Virus record (IMG/VR): IMGVR_UViG_3300021142_000062
Coordinates: 1 to 42,826 of that record
DNA: 42,826 nucleotides
Direction: 5' to 3' (one strand)
DNA from: a virus
The position numbers and the translations under genes were made by a program. This document shows positions 6,047 to 19,528 of the stretch, one piece after another (the first letter of the stretch is position 1; the number at the start of each line of letters is the position of its first letter). The notes below the pieces were generated by a model. That model ran no database searches and was not told the DNA's origin. It was given only the letters and a program-made list of their open reading frames with translations.

Positions 6047-6583
6047 ATGGCGAAGGCACCGGTGTCGAAGTGGGCGGAGTCGAAGCGCAGCGGCGACTAC
6101 GCGAGCGCGAAGGCGAAGGCCGACCAGGCGTCCGCGACGGCGGCGAACCACGGCAACGAGCTCCGGTCGAGTGCGGAGAGCGCGAAGCTTCACGACCGCG
6201 CGGCGAGCCTGCACAAGGAGGCCTCGAAGCTCGCGACGACGTCGCGCGACAAGAAGGACCACGACCGCTACGCGCTGGAGCACACGCGCGACAAGGCCGC
6301 GCACGAAGGCTACGCGGTCGAGCCCGAGAAGGCCGATCACTACAGCAAGCTGGCGAGCGATGCGTCGGCGCGCGCGGGTCGCGAAGAGGCGCGCGGTTCG
6401 TCGCAGAAGGACGAGTACCACCGCATCGCCGCGGACGCGCACGCGAAGGCTGCGAACCTCCAGCTCGAAGCCGGCAACAAGACCAAGGCGCTCGACCACG
6501 CTGGGCGCGCGCAGCTTCACGCGAGTGCTTCGGGCGACGACAAATACGTCCGCGATGAGCTCGGCCGCTTCGCCGGGAAGTAG
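6047..6583 (+). CDS. KWA/GRFASK family protein 1 (Ala/His/Lys-rich repeats)
   Basis: A 178-residue, Ala/Lys/His-rich, predicted all-helical protein. It begins with the family box PVSKWAESK (residues 5-13) and ends RDELGRFAGK. In between are repeated helical segments in which Ala, His and Glu/Lys recur (SAKLHDRAASLHKEASKLA, then DEYHRIAADAHAKAANLQLEAGN), giving a TPR-like look. It is the first of three tandem paralogues; two more lie at 11590 and 28431. There is no Shine-Dalgarno; a TAGGCT box sits 10 bases upstream. Function unknown. DNA-binding, scaffold or virion roles are possible but unproven. Confidence 0.85.
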   Translation: MAKAPVSKWAESKRSGDYASAKAKADQASATAANHGNELRSSAESAKLHDRAASLHKEASKLATTSRDKKDHDRYALEHTRDKAAHEGYAVEPEKADHYSKLASDASARAGREEARGSSQKDEYHRIAADAHAKAANLQLEAGNKTKALDHAGRAQLHASASGDDKYVRDELGRFAGK

Positions 6584-6586
6584 GAT
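6581..6586 (+). promoter_or_regulatory. -10 box TAGGAT of a predicted leaderless promoter
   Basis: TAGGAT, with TAG as the stop of the upstream gene, is 6 bases before the ATG at 6593. No Shine-Dalgarno is present. The same arrangement recurs at 7211. Confidence 0.45.
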
Positions 6587-6592
6587 CAGAAC

Positions 6593-9104: not shown

Positions 9105-9526
9105 TCTCGGACCGGGTGCGCCGGTGGTTGATCCGCATCGGCGAGAAGCTTTCGAAGACGTACTTCGAGGGGCCAGAGCCGCCCGAGCGGATCGCCGAGA
9201 TGGCGCGCGCGTTCGCCTCGATGAACCCGCGCGCGACGAAGGGCGAGTGGCTCGCGATGAGCGAGGAGCTCGCGCGTGAGGCGTACCGGTCCGGGTGGAC
9301 GCGCGGCTTCGAATTCGCGGAGCGGGATCCCGATGAGCCGAACCCGGCACCGGAGGAGCTCGCGGACGTGATGTCGCCGGGCTGGCGCGACCGCGCGCAC
9401 GATTGGCGCTGGGCAACGGACCTGCCGGTGCCGACCGAGCTCGATCGCGTGCCCGACGACGCCGGCCCGACCGTCGACGAGCGGATCGCGGCATTGATCG
9501 AAGCCAGCAGGACGCGCCGCGATTGA
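9101..9526 (+). CDS. Unknown protein downstream of the methyltransferase
   Basis: A 141-residue, mostly helical and charged protein (DRVRRWLIRIGEKLSKTYF at the start, WRDRAHDWRWATDLPVP later) with a GTG start overlapping the methyltransferase stop, so translation is likely coupled. I recognise no domain. The stop codon TGA is contributed by the AT-rich palindrome 9521-9542, placing a probable operator right at the end of this gene and marking a transcription-unit boundary. Confidence 0.75.
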   Translation: MISDRVRRWLIRIGEKLSKTYFEGPEPPERIAEMARAFASMNPRATKGEWLAMSEELAREAYRSGWTRGFEFAERDPDEPNPAPEELADVMSPGWRDRAHDWRWATDLPVPTELDRVPDDAGPTVDERIAALIEASRTRRD

Positions 9527-13955: not shown

Positions 13956-13991
13956 AAAAAAACTTGCAAGGTGCCGGTCCGTGCGTATGCT
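13956..13991 (+). promoter_or_regulatory. Sigma-70-type promoter P2 with A-tract
   Basis: An A-tract at 13956-13962 is followed by TTGCAA (-35, 13964-13969), a 16-base spacer and TATGCT (-10, 13986-13991). It closely matches P1 in A-tract, -35, spacer length and the downstream GGTCTC. The leader to the ATG at 14046 is ~48 bases and holds the 17-bp hairpin repeat. Confidence 0.75.
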
Positions 13992-14013
13992 GGGTCTCAG
14001 GCGACGACGAACC

Positions 14014-14030
14014 GGCCCCCGAGGGGGCAG
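14014..14030 (+). repeat. 17-bp leader repeat with hairpin potential, copy 2
   Basis: Identical to 13150-13166. It lies in the leader of the P2 transcript, 15 bases before the ATG at 14046. Confidence 0.6.
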
Positions 14031-14045
14031 AAGGCGCAGGACCAG

Positions 14046-14459
14046 ATGGCGATCAACAACCGACCGACGATGAGCACGGAAGAGGCGATCAACGAGGCGC
14101 GCGCGACGATCCGCGCCGCCGGCATCCGCGGCCTCCGCGCCCTCCCCGAGTCGAGCGGCGATTACATCTGCGCCGAATTCGAGCGCGCCGACCGCCGCGT
14201 GAACTGCACCCTCTACGTGCGCACCGGGTACCCGCGCACCGAGAAGGCGACCTGGAAGGGCGCGGGCGAGAACGAGATGGTCTTCGGGACCACGATCGTG
14301 GTCGAGATCACCTGGTCGAGCACCGGGCGCACGCCTGCCGAGGCGATCGCGTGCATCAAGCTATACACCGAGGTCGCGGAGCTCGCGGCGGAGCTCGAAG
14401 CCCGCTTCGCGCACGACCGGATCGGCGAGGTGCTCGACGTGACGCCGAAGGCCGGCTGA
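14046..14459 (+). CDS. Unknown protein driven by promoter P2
   Basis: A 137-residue protein. An N-terminal helix (STEEAINEARATIRAAGIRGL) is followed by a beta-rich core (YICAEFERADRRVNCTLYVRT and MVFGTTIVVEITWSSTG) and a C-terminal helical hairpin (IACIKLYTEVAELAAELEARF). The ATG lies downstream of the P2 leader; the frame is open upstream, but that DNA holds the promoter. No family recognised. Confidence 0.8.
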   Translation: MAINNRPTMSTEEAINEARATIRAAGIRGLRALPESSGDYICAEFERADRRVNCTLYVRTGYPRTEKATWKGAGENEMVFGTTIVVEITWSSTGRTPAEAIACIKLYTEVAELAAELEARFAHDRIGEVLDVTPKAG

Positions 14460-14476: not shown

Positions 14477-14542
14477 GCGCCGCCCGACCGGGCGGAGCGA
14501 GGGCAACCTCGCCAGCGGGTTCGACCCCCGCGCGGCGCGCCA
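14477..14542 (+). ncRNA. Compact tRNA-like RNA with perfect acceptor and T arms and encoded CCA
   Basis: A cloverleaf can be drawn with no mismatches: acceptor GCGCCGC (14477-14483) with GCGGCGC (14532-14538); a 3-bp D stem (CCG/CGG, loop of 6); a 5-bp anticodon stem GCGAG/CTCGC with a 6-base loop GGCAAC; a 2-base variable region; a T stem GCGGG/CCCGC with loop TTCGACC; discriminator G and CCA at 14540-14542. It lacks U33, the 8-9 linker and a normal D loop, so it is probably not a decoding tRNA. It may be a processing signal, a decayed tRNA or an attachment-site remnant. Confidence 0.5.
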
Positions 14543-14543
14543 C

Positions 14544-14565
14544 GATTGAAAAACGTTTTTCGATC
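14544..14565. promoter_or_regulatory. 22-bp AT-rich palindrome, site 2
   Basis: The sequence is identical to site 1 (GATTGAAAAAC then GTTTTTCGATC). It begins one base after the CCA of the tRNA-like fold and lies 31 bases before the ATG of the DUF932-like gene. Confidence 0.75.
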
Positions 14566-14596
14566 GCGAACCCAGACCCCAAACCAGGAGAGACCG

Positions 14597-16246
14597 ATGC
14601 CCCGCATGCCGCTCGCTGCCACCGCCACCGTCGACGCGATCCGCTACTTCACCCTCACCGCGTTCCACACGAACCCCGAGCTCGTGTGCGTCGCCCTCGG
14701 CGACGCCGCGCTCTACGTGCAGGCCGCCGACTGGGACCGCGCGTGCGAGGAGCTCGTGAGCCGCTACCCGGGCGCCGGCGCGCCGACCGTGACGCCGAGC
14801 CCCGCGCGCGCTGCAGCCCCGCAGGCCGCGCCGGCGGCGCCGACCACCCTGGCGACCGCGGCGCCGGTGACGACGCTTGCCAGCCCCCTCCGCGTGGCGC
14901 CGGCGGTGCAGCGCGGCGTGATGGTGGACCTGGAGGGCGCGGTGCGCTCCGGCAACGACCTCGCGCTCGCCGAGGCCGCGGGCTTCGCGCCGAAGCAGCC
15001 CTACTTCACGCGCGGCACGATGGTCGTCGACATCGGCGTCGAGAACGCGCGCCAGATGCGCATCGAGCACGACGCGAAGCCGACCGCGTTCGAGGCGTGC
15101 GGCGACTTCTCGAAGCGGATCCTCGGCGAGCAGCGGTGCGACGAGATCGTCGGCGTGCACGGCCTCGGCATGGAGCCGACCGGGCACCTCTACGACGACG
15201 CGACCGAGCGCCGGTACGTGCTGCAGCAGGCCGCGTTCGAAGGCTTCTGCAACCGGCTCGGGTTCGGCGGCGCCGCGTACCTGACGAAGTGCTGGCCGGT
15301 GCTCCGGCAGCACAACGTGAACGCGTGGCTCGGTGAGATCGCGACGCGCGAGGACAGCGCGCGCGCCGACCACGCCGAGGAGCAGGCGCGCCTCGCGCCC
15401 TCCAAGCGCCGCGCCTTCGAGCCCGCGGAGCTCAAGTTCCGCACGCGCAACGGCGCCGCCGGGCGCGAGGTGTTCGGGATCGTTTCGCCGAGCTACCCGA
15501 CCTTCGACGTGAACCTGATCGCGGACGCGATCGCGCTCGCCGCGCCGCCGGATGCGCGCTGCGTGATCGACTACGACGGCACGCGCGCGCGCTTCGAGGT
15601 GATGTTCCGCAGTGACGTGCTCCCGGAGAAGTACGTGGCCGGCGAGTTTTTCAAGGCCGGCGTCATCATCCGCAGCGACGACACCGGGCGCGGATCGCTC
15701 CGCGGCAGCGCGACGATCTTCCAGAACCTCTGCCTCAACCTGATCTGCATCGACGAAGCGCGCCAAGACCTCTTCGCGATCCCGCACATCGGATCGGTCG
15801 AGGCGATGGCGGCGAAGTTCCGCGACGGGTTCAAGAAGGCGCTCGGGCGGATCGAGCCCTTCCTCAAGGCGTGGAACTACTCGCTCACCGACGACGTGCT
15901 CGCGACGGCGCGCACGATCGACCCCGAGGTGCCGATGAGCGTCGAGGAAGCGCTCCCCGGGCTCTTCACCGCGATCGTCGAGCGCGAGCTCGTGCCGGTG
16001 CGCGGTCGCACGGTCGATGCGGTGCCGAAGCTGATGCAGATGTGGCACGAGGACACGAGCGCGGCGCGCCTCGACGCCTCGGTGGCGACGCGCGGCTCGA
16101 TCGTCAACGCGTTCACCCGCTACGCGCACAAGGTGAACGACGACGCGTTCTTCGCGGACGAGATCCAGCGCGCCGCCGGCAAGATGCTCTTCGGGCGCAA
16201 GGGGCAGAAGCCCGCGCCGTTGCCCTGGATGCCGGTCAACGCGTGA
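14597..16246 (+). CDS. DUF932-like protein
   Basis: A 549-residue protein with the hallmarks of the DUF932/LGT-type phage and plasmid family: GREVFGIVSPSYPTFD (~residue 292), a beta-rich centre (FEVMFRSDVLPEKYVAGEFFKAGVIIRSDD), GRGSLRGSATIFQNLCLN, and a helical C-terminal region. Residues ~60-100 are an Ala/Pro/Thr linker joining a small N-terminal domain. The role of the family is unknown, though it is frequent on plasmids and large phages near replication or recombination genes. The start has AGGAGA upstream. It follows palindrome site 2. Confidence 0.8.
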   Translation: MPRMPLAATATVDAIRYFTLTAFHTNPELVCVALGDAALYVQAADWDRACEELVSRYPGAGAPTVTPSPARAAAPQAAPAAPTTLATAAPVTTLASPLRVAPAVQRGVMVDLEGAVRSGNDLALAEAAGFAPKQPYFTRGTMVVDIGVENARQMRIEHDAKPTAFEACGDFSKRILGEQRCDEIVGVHGLGMEPTGHLYDDATERRYVLQQAAFEGFCNRLGFGGAAYLTKCWPVLRQHNVNAWLGEIATREDSARADHAEEQARLAPSKRRAFEPAELKFRTRNGAAGREVFGIVSPSYPTFDVNLIADAIALAAPPDARCVIDYDGTRARFEVMFRSDVLPEKYVAGEFFKAGVIIRSDDTGRGSLRGSATIFQNLCLNLICIDEARQDLFAIPHIGSVEAMAAKFRDGFKKALGRIEPFLKAWNYSLTDDVLATARTIDPEVPMSVEEALPGLFTAIVERELVPVRGRTVDAVPKLMQMWHEDTSAARLDASVATRGSIVNAFTRYAHKVNDDAFFADEIQRAAGKMLFGRKGQKPAPLPWMPVNA

Positions 16247-16279
16247 GCGCGTAGCGCGTGAGCGCGTAGCGCGTGAGCG
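16241..16279 (+). repeat. Tandem 15-bp repeat, 2.6 copies
   Basis: GCGTGAGCGCGTAGC is repeated exactly at 16241-16255 and 16256-16270, with a partial third copy. The first copy overlaps the stop codon of the DUF932-like gene. It leads straight into the hairpin at 16279. Confidence 0.8.
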
Positions 16280-16300
16280 GGGGAGCGGTGCTCCCCCCTT
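16279..16300 (+). terminator. Probable intrinsic terminator-like hairpin
   Basis: GGGGGAGC (16279-16286) pairs perfectly with GCTCCCCC (16290-16297) around GGT, followed by CTT. The 8-bp GC stem is strong but the T run is very short, so termination may be partial or the hairpin may protect the 3' end of the DUF932-like mRNA. Confidence 0.5.
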
Positions 16301-16302
16301 GC

Positions 16303-16374
16303 GCCCGCTAGCGGCTACGTGGCGCGCGGACGCGTGCGTTCACGGGCGGGGTTCGACTCCCCGCGCGGGCACCG
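16303..16374 (+). ncRNA. Second, more degenerate tRNA-like fold
   Basis: The T arm is clear: CGGGG (16347-16351), loop TTCGACT, CCCCG (16359-16363). GCCCGC (16303-16308) pairs with GCGGGC (16365-16370) as an acceptor, followed by a TA linker and a 3-bp GCG/CGC D-like stem. The centre forms only a 4-bp CGTG/CACG hairpin, and the end is ACCG rather than CCA. Its T-arm sequence resembles the fold at 14477, and it also precedes a large gene. Confidence 0.33.
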
Positions 16375-16400: not shown

Positions 16401-18032
16401 ATGGACCAGACCGCTTCGACGACCACGCGCGCGAGCGCCGACGACGGCTACGACACGTTCTTGAACGCGGTGAGGCGCCGCTACGCCCAGTACGCGCTCG
16501 CGGTCGAGCACACGCTCTACCAGACCAGCGCGCGCGAGGTGCTCTGGAAGGCGTACCTCGATGCGGCGCCGCCCGGTGAGCGGCAGCAGCGCAACTGCCG
16601 CTCGTGCCAGCAGTTCGTGGAGCGCTTCGGCGCGCTCGTGTGGGTCGACGACGACGGCGCGCAGTACTCGGTGATGTGGAATCCCGAGACGGCGCCGCCG
16701 GCGTACCGCGAGGTCGCGAAGGCGATGCAGCATCTGGCCGAACGCGCGACCGTCGAGGGCGTGTTCCTCTCGACCGAGAAGGTCTGGGGCACGCCGTACA
16801 CGGGCGAGGTCGAGGCACCGACTTGGATGCACTTCGCGGTCGTGCCGCCGTCGCTCAATCTGCACCGCAACCCGATCTTCGACGCCGGGCAGGTGATGGC
16901 GGAGAAGCGCCAGGACTTCGAGATGCTCGGTCGCTCGTTGAACGACTTCCCGCTCGCGGCGGTGCGTGAGGCGTACGCGCTGCTCACGACCGAGAAGCTG
17001 TACCGGTCGGAGAAGTGCATCGGGGTCGCGAGCTGGCTTCTCAACCTCCACGAGCGGCTCGCCGCGGTGTCACCGCGCGCGCGGCGCAACCTCATCTGGC
17101 GCGCGGTGGCGCTCGCGCCTCCGGGCTTCGTGCACGTGCGCAGCGGGATGATCGGTACGCTGCTCGAAGACGTGATCGCGCAGGTGCCGTTCGCGACGCT
17201 CAAGCGGAAGTTCGACGAGAAGATGAACCCGCTGCAGTACCAGCGCCCGACCGCCGCGCCCTCGGACGGGCAGATCGACCAGGCCGAGAAGATCACGAGC
17301 AAGCTGCGCAGCGCCGGCGCGCTGGAGCGTCGCTTCGCGCGCATCTCGGACACGCGGCCGCTGTGGATCCCGAGCCCGCCGAAGGTGACGCCGCCGAGCG
17401 GTGGCGTGTTCGGGCACCTCAAGTCGAAGAGCCCGCTCGACGCGCTCATCGATCTCAAGGTGCCGGCGACGGTCATGACTTGGTCGAAGTTCGAGCGCAC
17501 GGTGCTATCGGGTGCCGAGAAGATCGAGTGCCTCGTGCCGCACGGACACGCGAACTTTTGCGCCTACACGACCGCGACCAACGCGGACGCGCCGCCGATC
17601 CTCCAGTGGGATCGCGAGGAGCTCCGCAACCCGGTCTCCTGGTACGTGTACGTCTCGGGCTCGCCGGCGTCGCAGTGGTCGATCACGCCCGGCTGGTGCG
17701 AGGTCTCCGCGGTGATCTTGCAGCCGACGATGTGGGATCCCGAGCGCGCGTACGCGCACCAGAGCGAGTCGGTGCTCTTCGCGCTGAAGGGCGCGCGCGA
17801 CGCGCGCCGGGGCGTCGGGTTCTTCGTCGAGCAGCTGCGCGCCGAGTACCACGGCATCCGCAAGACCCTCGAAGCGTACGCGCGCCGGATGGAGCTCACC
17901 GGGCGCGAGGACGAGAACCTCGCGAGCGGCCTGCGCTTCCAGAAGGGCAGCGAGACCGCGATCGACGAGCGCATCGTGCGCGTGACCGCGCGCGGTGTCG
18001 TGACGACCTTCAAGCTGGATCGGTGGGATTGA
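16401..18032 (+). CDS. Large conserved-type phage protein of unknown function
   Basis: A 543-residue protein with GGAGAGAGG upstream of its ATG. The N-terminal part has NCRSCQQFVERFGALVWVDDDG (~72-93), with a possible Cys pair, and VWGTPYTGEVEAPTWMHFAVV. The rest mixes helical segments and a C-terminal beta region (WYVYVSGSPASQWSITPGW). I have the impression of a family seen in large phages but cannot name it. It lies between the DUF932-like gene and the helicase, which suggests a replication or nucleic-acid role by context only. Confidence 0.8.
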   Translation: MDQTASTTTRASADDGYDTFLNAVRRRYAQYALAVEHTLYQTSAREVLWKAYLDAAPPGERQQRNCRSCQQFVERFGALVWVDDDGAQYSVMWNPETAPPAYREVAKAMQHLAERATVEGVFLSTEKVWGTPYTGEVEAPTWMHFAVVPPSLNLHRNPIFDAGQVMAEKRQDFEMLGRSLNDFPLAAVREAYALLTTEKLYRSEKCIGVASWLLNLHERLAAVSPRARRNLIWRAVALAPPGFVHVRSGMIGTLLEDVIAQVPFATLKRKFDEKMNPLQYQRPTAAPSDGQIDQAEKITSKLRSAGALERRFARISDTRPLWIPSPPKVTPPSGGVFGHLKSKSPLDALIDLKVPATVMTWSKFERTVLSGAEKIECLVPHGHANFCAYTTATNADAPPILQWDREELRNPVSWYVYVSGSPASQWSITPGWCEVSAVILQPTMWDPERAYAHQSESVLFALKGARDARRGVGFFVEQLRAEYHGIRKTLEAYARRMELTGREDENLASGLRFQKGSETAIDERIVRVTARGVVTTFKLDRWD

Positions 18033-18034
18033 AC

Positions 18035-19528
18035 ATGGACGCCTTCGACGACTTCGCCCCCATCGACCCGAACCGCCCCGTGCCGCAACCGTTCGTCGAG
18101 AGCGCCTACCAGGCCGCGATCTGCAACGACGCCGAGACCGGCAGCGACCACGTGCTCGTGCGGGCGCGCGCGGGCTCGGGCAAGACCGAGACGATCGTGC
18201 GCGCGATCCGCCGCATCCCCGAGCGCCACATGGGCAGCGTGCTGCTCGCGGCGTTCAACTCGAAGATCGCCGACGAGCTGCGCCGGCGCGCGCCCTCGAC
18301 GTCGGACGTCATGACGCTGCACTCGTACGGCTTCCGCGCGGTGATCCGCCACCTCGGCGGCAAGCCCGAGGTCGACAAGTGGAAGGTGCACGGGATGGCG
18401 CGCGAGCTGCTCGGCGACGCGCCGGGCACGGCGGAGATCCGCGGTGCGCTGCAGCGCGCGGTCGCCGCGGCGAAGAACACGCTCGCCACGACGGTCGATC
18501 AGATCGACGCGCTCGTGGACGCGATGAACATCGATCTGCCCATCGGCACGCGGCGCCTGGAATTCGCGAGCGACGTGCTCTCGGTGCTGGAGCAGTGCAA
18601 GAACCCGAAGGGCGTGATCGACTTCGACGACCAGGTCTGGTTGCCGGTGGTGCTCGGGCTCAACACGCGCAAGTTCGACCGCGTGTTCATCGACGAGACC
18701 CAAGACCTGAACCCGACGCAGATCGAGCTCGCGATGGCGGCGTCGCGGCGCGGCAGCCGCGTGACCGCAGTAGGTGATGACCGGCAAAGTATCTATAAAT
18801 TCAGAGGTGCGGACGAACACGCGATGGACCGCGTGAAGCACCGGCTCAACGCGAAGATCCTCCCGCTGAGCGTGAGCTACCGGTGCGCGCGCAGCATCGT
18901 GAAGCTCGCGCAGCAGACCGTGCCGGACATCGAGGCCGCGCCGGGCGCGCGCGAGGGCGAGGTGCGGTTCGGCGTGCGCATCGACACGCTCTACCGCGAA
19001 GCGCAGCCCGGCGATTTCATCCTCTCGCGGGTGAACGCGCCGCTGCTCACGATGTGCCTGCGCTTCATCCGCGAGGGGCGTCGCGCGACCATCCAGGGAC
19101 GCTCGATCGGTGACGAGCTCGCCGCGTTCGTCCGCAAGATCGACTGCGACCGCTACACGCCCGCGGGCGTGACCGTCTTCCGCGACTACGTGGACGCGTG
19201 GAAGGCGACCGAGGTGGCGCGGCTCGTGGCGAAGGAGCGCGACACGCAGGCGGTCGAGGACAAGGCCGCGTGCCTCCACGCGCTCGCCGACCAGGCCAAG
19301 AACGTCACCGAGATCGAGCGCGCGATCGCGAACCTCTTCGAGGACAAGGACGACGCGACGCGGATCATCCTCTCCTCGACGCACCGTGCGAAGGGCATGG
19401 AGCGCGAGCGCGCGTGGCTCATCGGCGACACGTTCCGCCCGACGCGCGGCATCCAAGAGGCGAACCTCTGGTACGTCGGCGTCACCCGCGCGAAGGGCTC
19501 GCTGCAGATCGTGAGTGGGGTGCCGTGA
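18035..19528 (+). CDS. UvrD/Rep-like superfamily 1 DNA helicase
   Basis: A 497-residue SF1 helicase. In order: Walker A ARAGSGKTETI (44-54), TLHSYGFRAV (motif Ib region), Walker B FIDETQDLN (218-226), motif III GDDRQSIYKFRGA (247-259), SVSYRC (motif IV), STHRAKGMERE (motif V) and LWYVGVTRAKGSL (motif VI). It should unwind DNA 3'-5' during replication or recombination. It is shorter than bacterial UvrD, lacking most of the 1B/2B insertions. The 14 codons of motif III use rare AT-rich codons, unlike the rest of the gene. Confidence 0.93.
   Translation: MDAFDDFAPIDPNRPVPQPFVESAYQAAICNDAETGSDHVLVRARAGSGKTETIVRAIRRIPERHMGSVLLAAFNSKIADELRRRAPSTSDVMTLHSYGFRAVIRHLGGKPEVDKWKVHGMARELLGDAPGTAEIRGALQRAVAAAKNTLATTVDQIDALVDAMNIDLPIGTRRLEFASDVLSVLEQCKNPKGVIDFDDQVWLPVVLGLNTRKFDRVFIDETQDLNPTQIELAMAASRRGSRVTAVGDDRQSIYKFRGADEHAMDRVKHRLNAKILPLSVSYRCARSIVKLAQQTVPDIEAAPGAREGEVRFGVRIDTLYREAQPGDFILSRVNAPLLTMCLRFIREGRRATIQGRSIGDELAAFVRKIDCDRYTPAGVTVFRDYVDAWKATEVARLVAKERDTQAVEDKAACLHALADQAKNVTEIERAIANLFEDKDDATRIILSSTHRAKGMERERAWLIGDTFRPTRGIQEANLWYVGVTRAKGSLQIVSGVP

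Follow-up and report, generated by a model that had tools for sequence, protein, structure and literature searches.

Genes in animal mitochondrial transcripts are separated by tRNA folds, which are working tRNAs, and the bacterial Y RNA YrlA is a tRNA mimic that adjoins a protein gene. The tRNA-like domain of tmRNA comprises an acceptor and a T arm; its D stem is rudimentary or missing, and it has no anticodon arm. mascRNA and menRNA, the tRNA-like ends of MALAT1 and MEN beta, are reduced tRNA folds at a transcript 3' end, and mascRNA is the RNase P-cut end of MALAT1. Plant mitochondrial t-elements lie beside mRNAs, where their cutting by RNase P and RNase Z defines the mRNA ends, and are not aminoacylated (PMC11658184). 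They are recognisable derivatives of organelle tRNAs, eight of them annotated in Arabidopsis. RNase P is also reported to cleave tRNA-like structures, mRNAs and hairpins made of acceptor, T stem and T loop, and its phage substrates include the M3 RNA of phi80, the C4 antisense RNA of P1/P7 and the T4 gene 32 mRNA (PMC11143913). So far, tRNA-like punctuation of mRNAs has been a matter of organelles and a few vertebrate RNAs. No phage descriptions of elements such as those reported below were found in the open-access literature, and the stop-associated, reduced tRNA-like elements of phages apparently constitute an undescribed class.

The DNA analysed here, called the window, is the whole 42,826-nucleotide virus record IMGVR_UViG_3300021142_000062, which contains two such elements, TLS1 and TLS2. 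Like t-elements, the phage elements are tRNA-like folds adjoining a protein gene on its coding strand; unlike them, they reside in phage genomes, are more reduced and can fill every gap of a gene array, and their cutting is presumed. They share with mascRNA and menRNA the reduced tRNA fold at a transcript 3' end (for the phages a predicted one) and, in some cases, a strong hairpin immediately upstream, but lie in phage mRNAs, are multicopy and often lack the D stem or the anticodon arm. In contrast to the mitochondrial tRNAs they are unable to decode, and unlike YrlA they stand behind many different genes; no Ro60/TROVE domain was found in gene B, which lies between TLS1 and TLS2, or in its phrog_1362 relatives. 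Whereas M3, C4 and the gene 32 mRNA are single cases, the phage elements are repeated T-arm/acceptor units past stop codons. Their composition is that of the tmRNA tRNA-like domain without an mRNA-like domain.

Structure and surroundings of TLS1 and TLS2

TLS1 (14477–14542, + strand) consists of an acceptor, a D-like stem, a middle stem, a T arm and a terminal GCCA. As described in the first-pass annotation of this stretch, the acceptor is a mismatch-free helix of 7 bp (GCGCCGC at 14477–14483 with GCGGCGC at 14532–14538) followed by GCCA (14539–14542) and hence an encoded CCA, the D-like stem has 3 bp (14484–14486/14493–14495; CCG-ACCGGG-CGG, with loop ACCGGG), and the T arm (GCGGG-TTCGACC-CCCGC, 14515–14531) has a 5-bp stem (14515–14519/14527–14531) and the loop TTCGACC (14520–14526). 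The anticodon stem of 5 bp with a 6-base loop, also proposed there, gives way to a middle arm of 6 bp (14497–14502/14507–14512) capped by GCAA. Since this arm leaves no anticodon loop, TLS1 is unable to decode, as had been suspected. It also lacks the two bases found in tRNAs between the acceptor and the D stem.

The intergenic placement noted earlier is correct. The upstream gene (14046–14459, + strand; 137 aa from the ATG at 14046, in a frame open from 13758) ends with TGA at 14457–14459, and TLS1 starts 17 nt past this stop codon and ends 54 nt short of the next start codon (ATG, 14597), with a palindrome (CGATTGAAAAACGTTTTTCGATCG, 14543–14566, + strand) coming next.

The folding energy of TLS1 is weak for such GC-rich DNA, with a z-score of -1.7 and 10 of 200 shuffled sequences equally stable. 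Pairing probabilities depend on context, being 0.19 for the acceptor and 0.92 for the T stem in 101 nt, and 0.10 and 0.27 in 160 nt; with longer flanks the T strand is able to pair with a downstream CGAACCC and the acceptor competes with other folds. The combination of T arm and acceptor is nevertheless not due to chance. The sense strand carries two T arms with a coaxial helix of at least 12 bp, for which the expected number in the window is 0.083; not one of 300 simulated windows reached two, and a T arm, an acceptor of at least 6 bp and NCCA together were found in none of 60 simulations.

TLS2 (16303–16373, + strand), which the first-pass annotation overlooked, is made of GCCCGC, the D-loop-like stretch AGCGGCU, a long hairpin, the T arm GCGGGG-TTCGACT-CCCCGC, GCGGGC and ACC. 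It lies on the coding strand between gene B (14597–16246, + strand; 549 aa, phrog_1362), 56 nt past its stop codon, and gene C (16401–18032, + strand; phrog_1735), which begins 27 nt past the TLS2 tail. A strong hairpin, GGGGGAGC-GGT-GCTCCCCC (16279–16297, + strand), stands immediately 5' of it; the z-score is -2.5 for the hairpin stretch and -4.0 for the whole post-stop stretch.

A single close relative of the window phage was found in IMG/VR, the 81,955-base genome G001 (contig L129). Profile searches with TerL, A3 and A4 gave no second one, and neither gene B nor the element had a match in phage and bacterial genome collections. The gene B orthologue of G001 is 61% identical, with weak similarity to DUF932, and is followed on its 3' side by an orthologue of TLS2. 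The two elements were compared by helix position, with pairs counted outward from the T loop, because MAFFT misplaced the 5' half of their alignment. All 12 pairs are kept, of which four have changed on both sides and one has become G-U, and none is broken. The T loop UUCGACU is identical and the AGCGG-Y-U stretch is kept, while the middle hairpin has diverged in length and sequence, and the corresponding upstream position in G001 is taken by another strong hairpin, unlike that of the window. The D-loop stretch of the orthologue, GAGCGGUU, resembles that of tRNA-Ser. The compensatory changes sought at the outset are present in TLS2. At the TLS1 site of G001 the element is truncated, and only the 3' part, CCCCGCGCGGCGC, is left. 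G001 has a further element behind another gene, directly past the stop codon, with a strong hairpin before it and a TTGCAA-type promoter-like sequence directly abutting it.

Occurrence in other phages and common anatomy

Viral contigs were retrieved by two exact T-arm sequences and scanned with a descriptor, for which the background is 0.5 per 937 kb. Its hits comprised true tRNAs, fragments of attachment sites, lambdoid-type tRNA genes that are probably degenerate and, in unrelated GC-rich contigs (L066, L173, L177, L185, L190 with two, L194, L195 and L205), window-like elements that are not called by ARAGORN. Those of L021, L076, L085 and L117, which are probably attachment-site tRNA ends, were left out of the count. 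Every contig element examined is on the coding strand, past a stop codon and, where this is visible, before another gene; the upstream genes include those of the major head protein (L173, L185) and the portal (L205). The L194 element precedes a gene of phrog_1362, the family of gene B.

A search with this family led to the Gordonia phage VanLee and to another four Gordonia phages in culture, in which related copies lie between genes. Elements and phrog_1362 genes thus occur together in the window phage, G001, L194 and VanLee, and a general link of the two was considered; it is partial, with an adjacent element in one of nine further regions (that of VanLee). The element 3' of the VanLee phrog_1362 gene reads GCCCG-GACGGTCGTA-CCGGGGG-TTCAACT-CCCCCGG-CGGGC-ACGG, and elements of this type have no anticodon arm.

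Scanned over its whole genome, VanLee has 16 elements against 0.4 expected. The other four Gordonia phages have about 10 each (0.2–0.4 expected), among them Cafasso with 10 against 0.2. The IMG/VR phage G006 contains eight against 0.2 expected, one of which reads as a normal tRNA, G008 (182.8 kb) contains three, at a distance of about 90 kb from where its normal tRNA genes cluster, and the control phages G003 and G004 contain none. Where ARAGORN made a call on a Gordonia element, the result was mostly an intron-containing tRNA of implausible length; these calls were disregarded. The Gordonia elements are not all independent, as they are probably duplicates within each phage. The upstream hairpin seen at TLS2 was rejected as a general protective trait, being absent from TLS1 and most Gordonia elements.

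The arrangement is most regular between 71,800 and 82,000 of VanLee, where each of the 16 annotated gaps that exceed 20 nt holds an element, 15 of them perfect and one bulged. All are on the coding strand, and 14 of the 16 begin 2–31 nt past the stop codon. The following gene often starts 46–51 nt downstream, with a leader CCCAAC-GAAAGGAG ahead of its start codon. The genome announcement of VanLee lists 164 genes and one tRNA and leaves the elements unmentioned (PMC8320454).

Conserved features of 49 distinct elements are a 12-bp coaxial helix, a T loop of the form UUCRANN and the position after a stop codon, while the anticodon arm, the D stem and the encoded CCA are variable or missing. A stretch resembling a D loop is often present. 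The acceptor/T helix measures exactly 12 bp in 38 of the 49, with a search that permitted longer ones, and extensions beyond 12 bp are rarer than expected (P 2e-4). Its division between acceptor and T stem varies from 4+8 to 7+5. The helix is bordered by an unpaired A at both base -1 and base 73 in 25 of the 49; most elements lack an encoded CCA, and 23 have ACG. A D-loop-like GG in the short linkers shows no significant enrichment (p 0.097). The two positions closest to the loop are nearly always G-C pairs, and pair types differ at 10 of the 12 helix positions, a variety that is no independent test of covariation, as the descriptor demands pairing. Independent evidence comes from the excess over simulation, the occupancy of the VanLee gaps and the comparison of TLS2 with its G001 orthologue.

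With respect to known RNA classes, the elements have in common with canonical tRNAs an acceptor stacked on a T arm with a UUCRANN loop, and lack a 7-nt anticodon loop with U33, the arm of TLS1 ending in GCAA. ARAGORN finds no tRNA in the window or in G001. Rfam searches at the cut-off and at relaxed thresholds gave no accepted family for TLS1 or the related elements tested, and the tRNA family RF00005 was not listed at E<=10 for the elements searched. The nearest family is mascRNA-menRNA (RF01684), the best match of TLS2 (E 0.015), TLS3 and one VanLee element (E 0.05) at 17–27 bits; scores of 22.2, 17.4, 12.8 and 26.8 bits all fall below its gathering cut-off of 42.5. The elements did not show the features of tmRNA (a tag reading frame, pseudoknots and a split acceptor) and gave only partial Rfam matches to its T arm, of at most 17 nt and at 7–8 bits.

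Possible role in transcript processing and alternatives

The existence, structure, recurrence, position and compensatory changes of the elements are directly supported, and we conclude from these sequence data that the elements form a class of stop-associated, tRNA-like units, putatively serving as punctuation. For TLS1 three ideas had been advanced, a signal for RNase P and RNase Z in the mRNA, a decoy for host tRNA enzymes and a relic of an attachment site. The first appears to fit best, because there are several elements per phage, each with a 12-bp helix and no parts for decoding, and they lie just past stop codons on the coding strand. The second is a possible alternative. On balance, TLS1 and TLS2 are probably members of a recurrent group of reduced tRNAs that punctuate mRNA by means of host tRNA-processing enzymes, which is the best explanation at hand. 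Punctuation is proposed since the conserved domain is the one present in model substrates of RNase P (PMC11143913) and since the nearest Rfam family is mascRNA-menRNA and the closest functional counterparts are the t-elements (PMC11658184).

The elements would most likely be cleaved by RNase P and by a nuclease acting on tRNA 3' ends. What follows, from the cuts and their enzymes to the gain for the phage, is postulated. Once the ribosome has departed, the element would fold within the polycistronic transcript, and host RNase P would recognise the stacked acceptor/T helix with its loop and cut at the 5' end of the element. The upstream mRNA would then end just past its stop codon, behind a strong hairpin at TLS2 and some other elements. 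The 3' nuclease (RNase Z, or RNase E and subsequent trimming) would cut past the discriminator base, and the downstream mRNA would begin with a short leader free of structure, so that neighbouring genes might obtain separate stability and expression. RNase P commonly prefers U at base -1. Counting against cleavage by the bacterial enzyme, this base is mostly A in the elements, and the encoded CCA that the enzyme favours is mostly replaced by ACG. It is conceivable, though held with less confidence than the reading of TLS1 and TLS2, that phages evolved genome-wide punctuation, perhaps several times, with one reduced tRNA per gene or small block at which host enzymes split the transcript.

If the elements acted only as stable folds after the stop codon, protecting mRNA 3' ends, blocking ribosome run-on or aiding termination with no tRNA enzyme involved, the high stability and GC-richness of the gene-end folds would be accounted for, and so would the plain perfect hairpin that follows the gene B homologue of the distant relative G003. 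Such an insulator is nonetheless unlikely, given that any hairpin would suffice for it, that the conserved T loop, the 12-bp helix and the unpaired A/A border remain unexplained, and that no U-run lies 3' of the elements. Slightly less likely still is that the released element is itself the product, a small stable tRNA mimic acting in trans, for instance by tying up the host's tRNA enzymes or defence nucleases that target tRNA, with its position behind genes a mere convenience of transcription. An acceptor/T half without an anticodon arm would offer anticodon nucleases no target while still binding enzymes that contact the elbow and acceptor, and as many as 16 copies are present per genome; the presence of one element in each gap of the VanLee array and the close spacing to stop codons are left unexplained by this proposal.

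Decay of phage tRNA genes with loss of their anticodon arms is improbable. Phages do carry tRNA genes, as the G008 cluster illustrates, lambdoid-type contigs such as L012 have tRNA genes that escape ARAGORN and are probably degenerate, and the D-loop stretch of the G001 orthologue resembles that of tRNA-Ser; against this, the helices are intact and co-varying, the elements stand singly behind genes and, in G008, far from the tRNA cluster, and VanLee has 16 of them against one annotated tRNA. A fortuitous cloverleaf in GC-rich DNA would agree with the folding energy of TLS1, only 1.7 SD below that of shuffled sequences, and with its truncation in the only close relative, but it is contradicted by the simulations, the compensatory changes in TLS2 and the recurrence in other phages, which make it very improbable and, for the class, largely refute it. 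The idea of a relic of a host tRNA attachment site draws on the tRNA 3' halves ending in CCA that such sites often hold. It found no support and is hardly credible, as no tyrosine integrase was detected in the window phage or G001 (the search covered this integrase type), the 3' 21-mer of TLS1 occurs in only five bacterial contigs, in three of them inside long reading frames, and each phage has at least two different elements, with compensatory changes.

If mRNA punctuation is indeed their role, the elements would represent a new kind of phage transcript processing, in a bacterial-virus system that reaches 16 copies per genome and occurs in cultured phages. It would explain an unannotated structure, skipped by tRNA finders, in many phage gene gaps, and would provide a directly testable set of natural minimal RNase P substrates.

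Repeats and promoter-like sequences near the elements

The palindrome next to TLS1 shares its core, GAAAAACGTTTTTC, with five other sites, the six copies in the window (at 9525, 14548, 21683, 26667, 28697 and 34133) comparing with 0.17 expected. Most of them lie in the stretch from a stop codon to the ATG that follows, and they are possibly operators or terminators. At the matching place 5' of gene B, G001 has a different, AT-rich palindrome, ACCAAAAGGTGCTTTTTGGT.

Immediately 3' of the stop codon of gene B, the window contains a tandem repeat of GCGCGTGAGCGCGTA (16244–16278). In the place of TLS2, the distant gene B relative G003 (L147, about 6530–6590) carries a long and perfect inverted repeat, GACGGGCGAATGGAATCC-CGGGATTCCATTCGCCCGTC, and in VanLee the phrog_1362 gene is followed by TGAGCGCGTAG. 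Several gaps of the VanLee array (L260, 71.8–82.0 kb) have a second small hairpin between the element and a leader before the ATG, CACGGCACCCAAC-GAAAGGAG, which is conserved. About 55 codons of gene C are kept in G001 (L129 after 6841, following TLS2), and the remaining part appears to be deleted.

A tRNA-like sequence containing GGTCAGTGTACGCTTAACTGGTAAAG, not called by ARAGORN, is shared by L012, L029, L054, L063 and L074 and is probably a degenerate tRNA that is widespread among lambdoid-type prophages. Just 5' of the start codon of the gene upstream of TLS1 (13957–14045), a promoter-like TTGCA(A/T) and a TAGAGT-like hexamer are followed by the hairpin GGCCCCCGAGGGGGC, and the same unit is present on the reverse complement of G001 at about 19270–19350 and 570–640 and at both ends.
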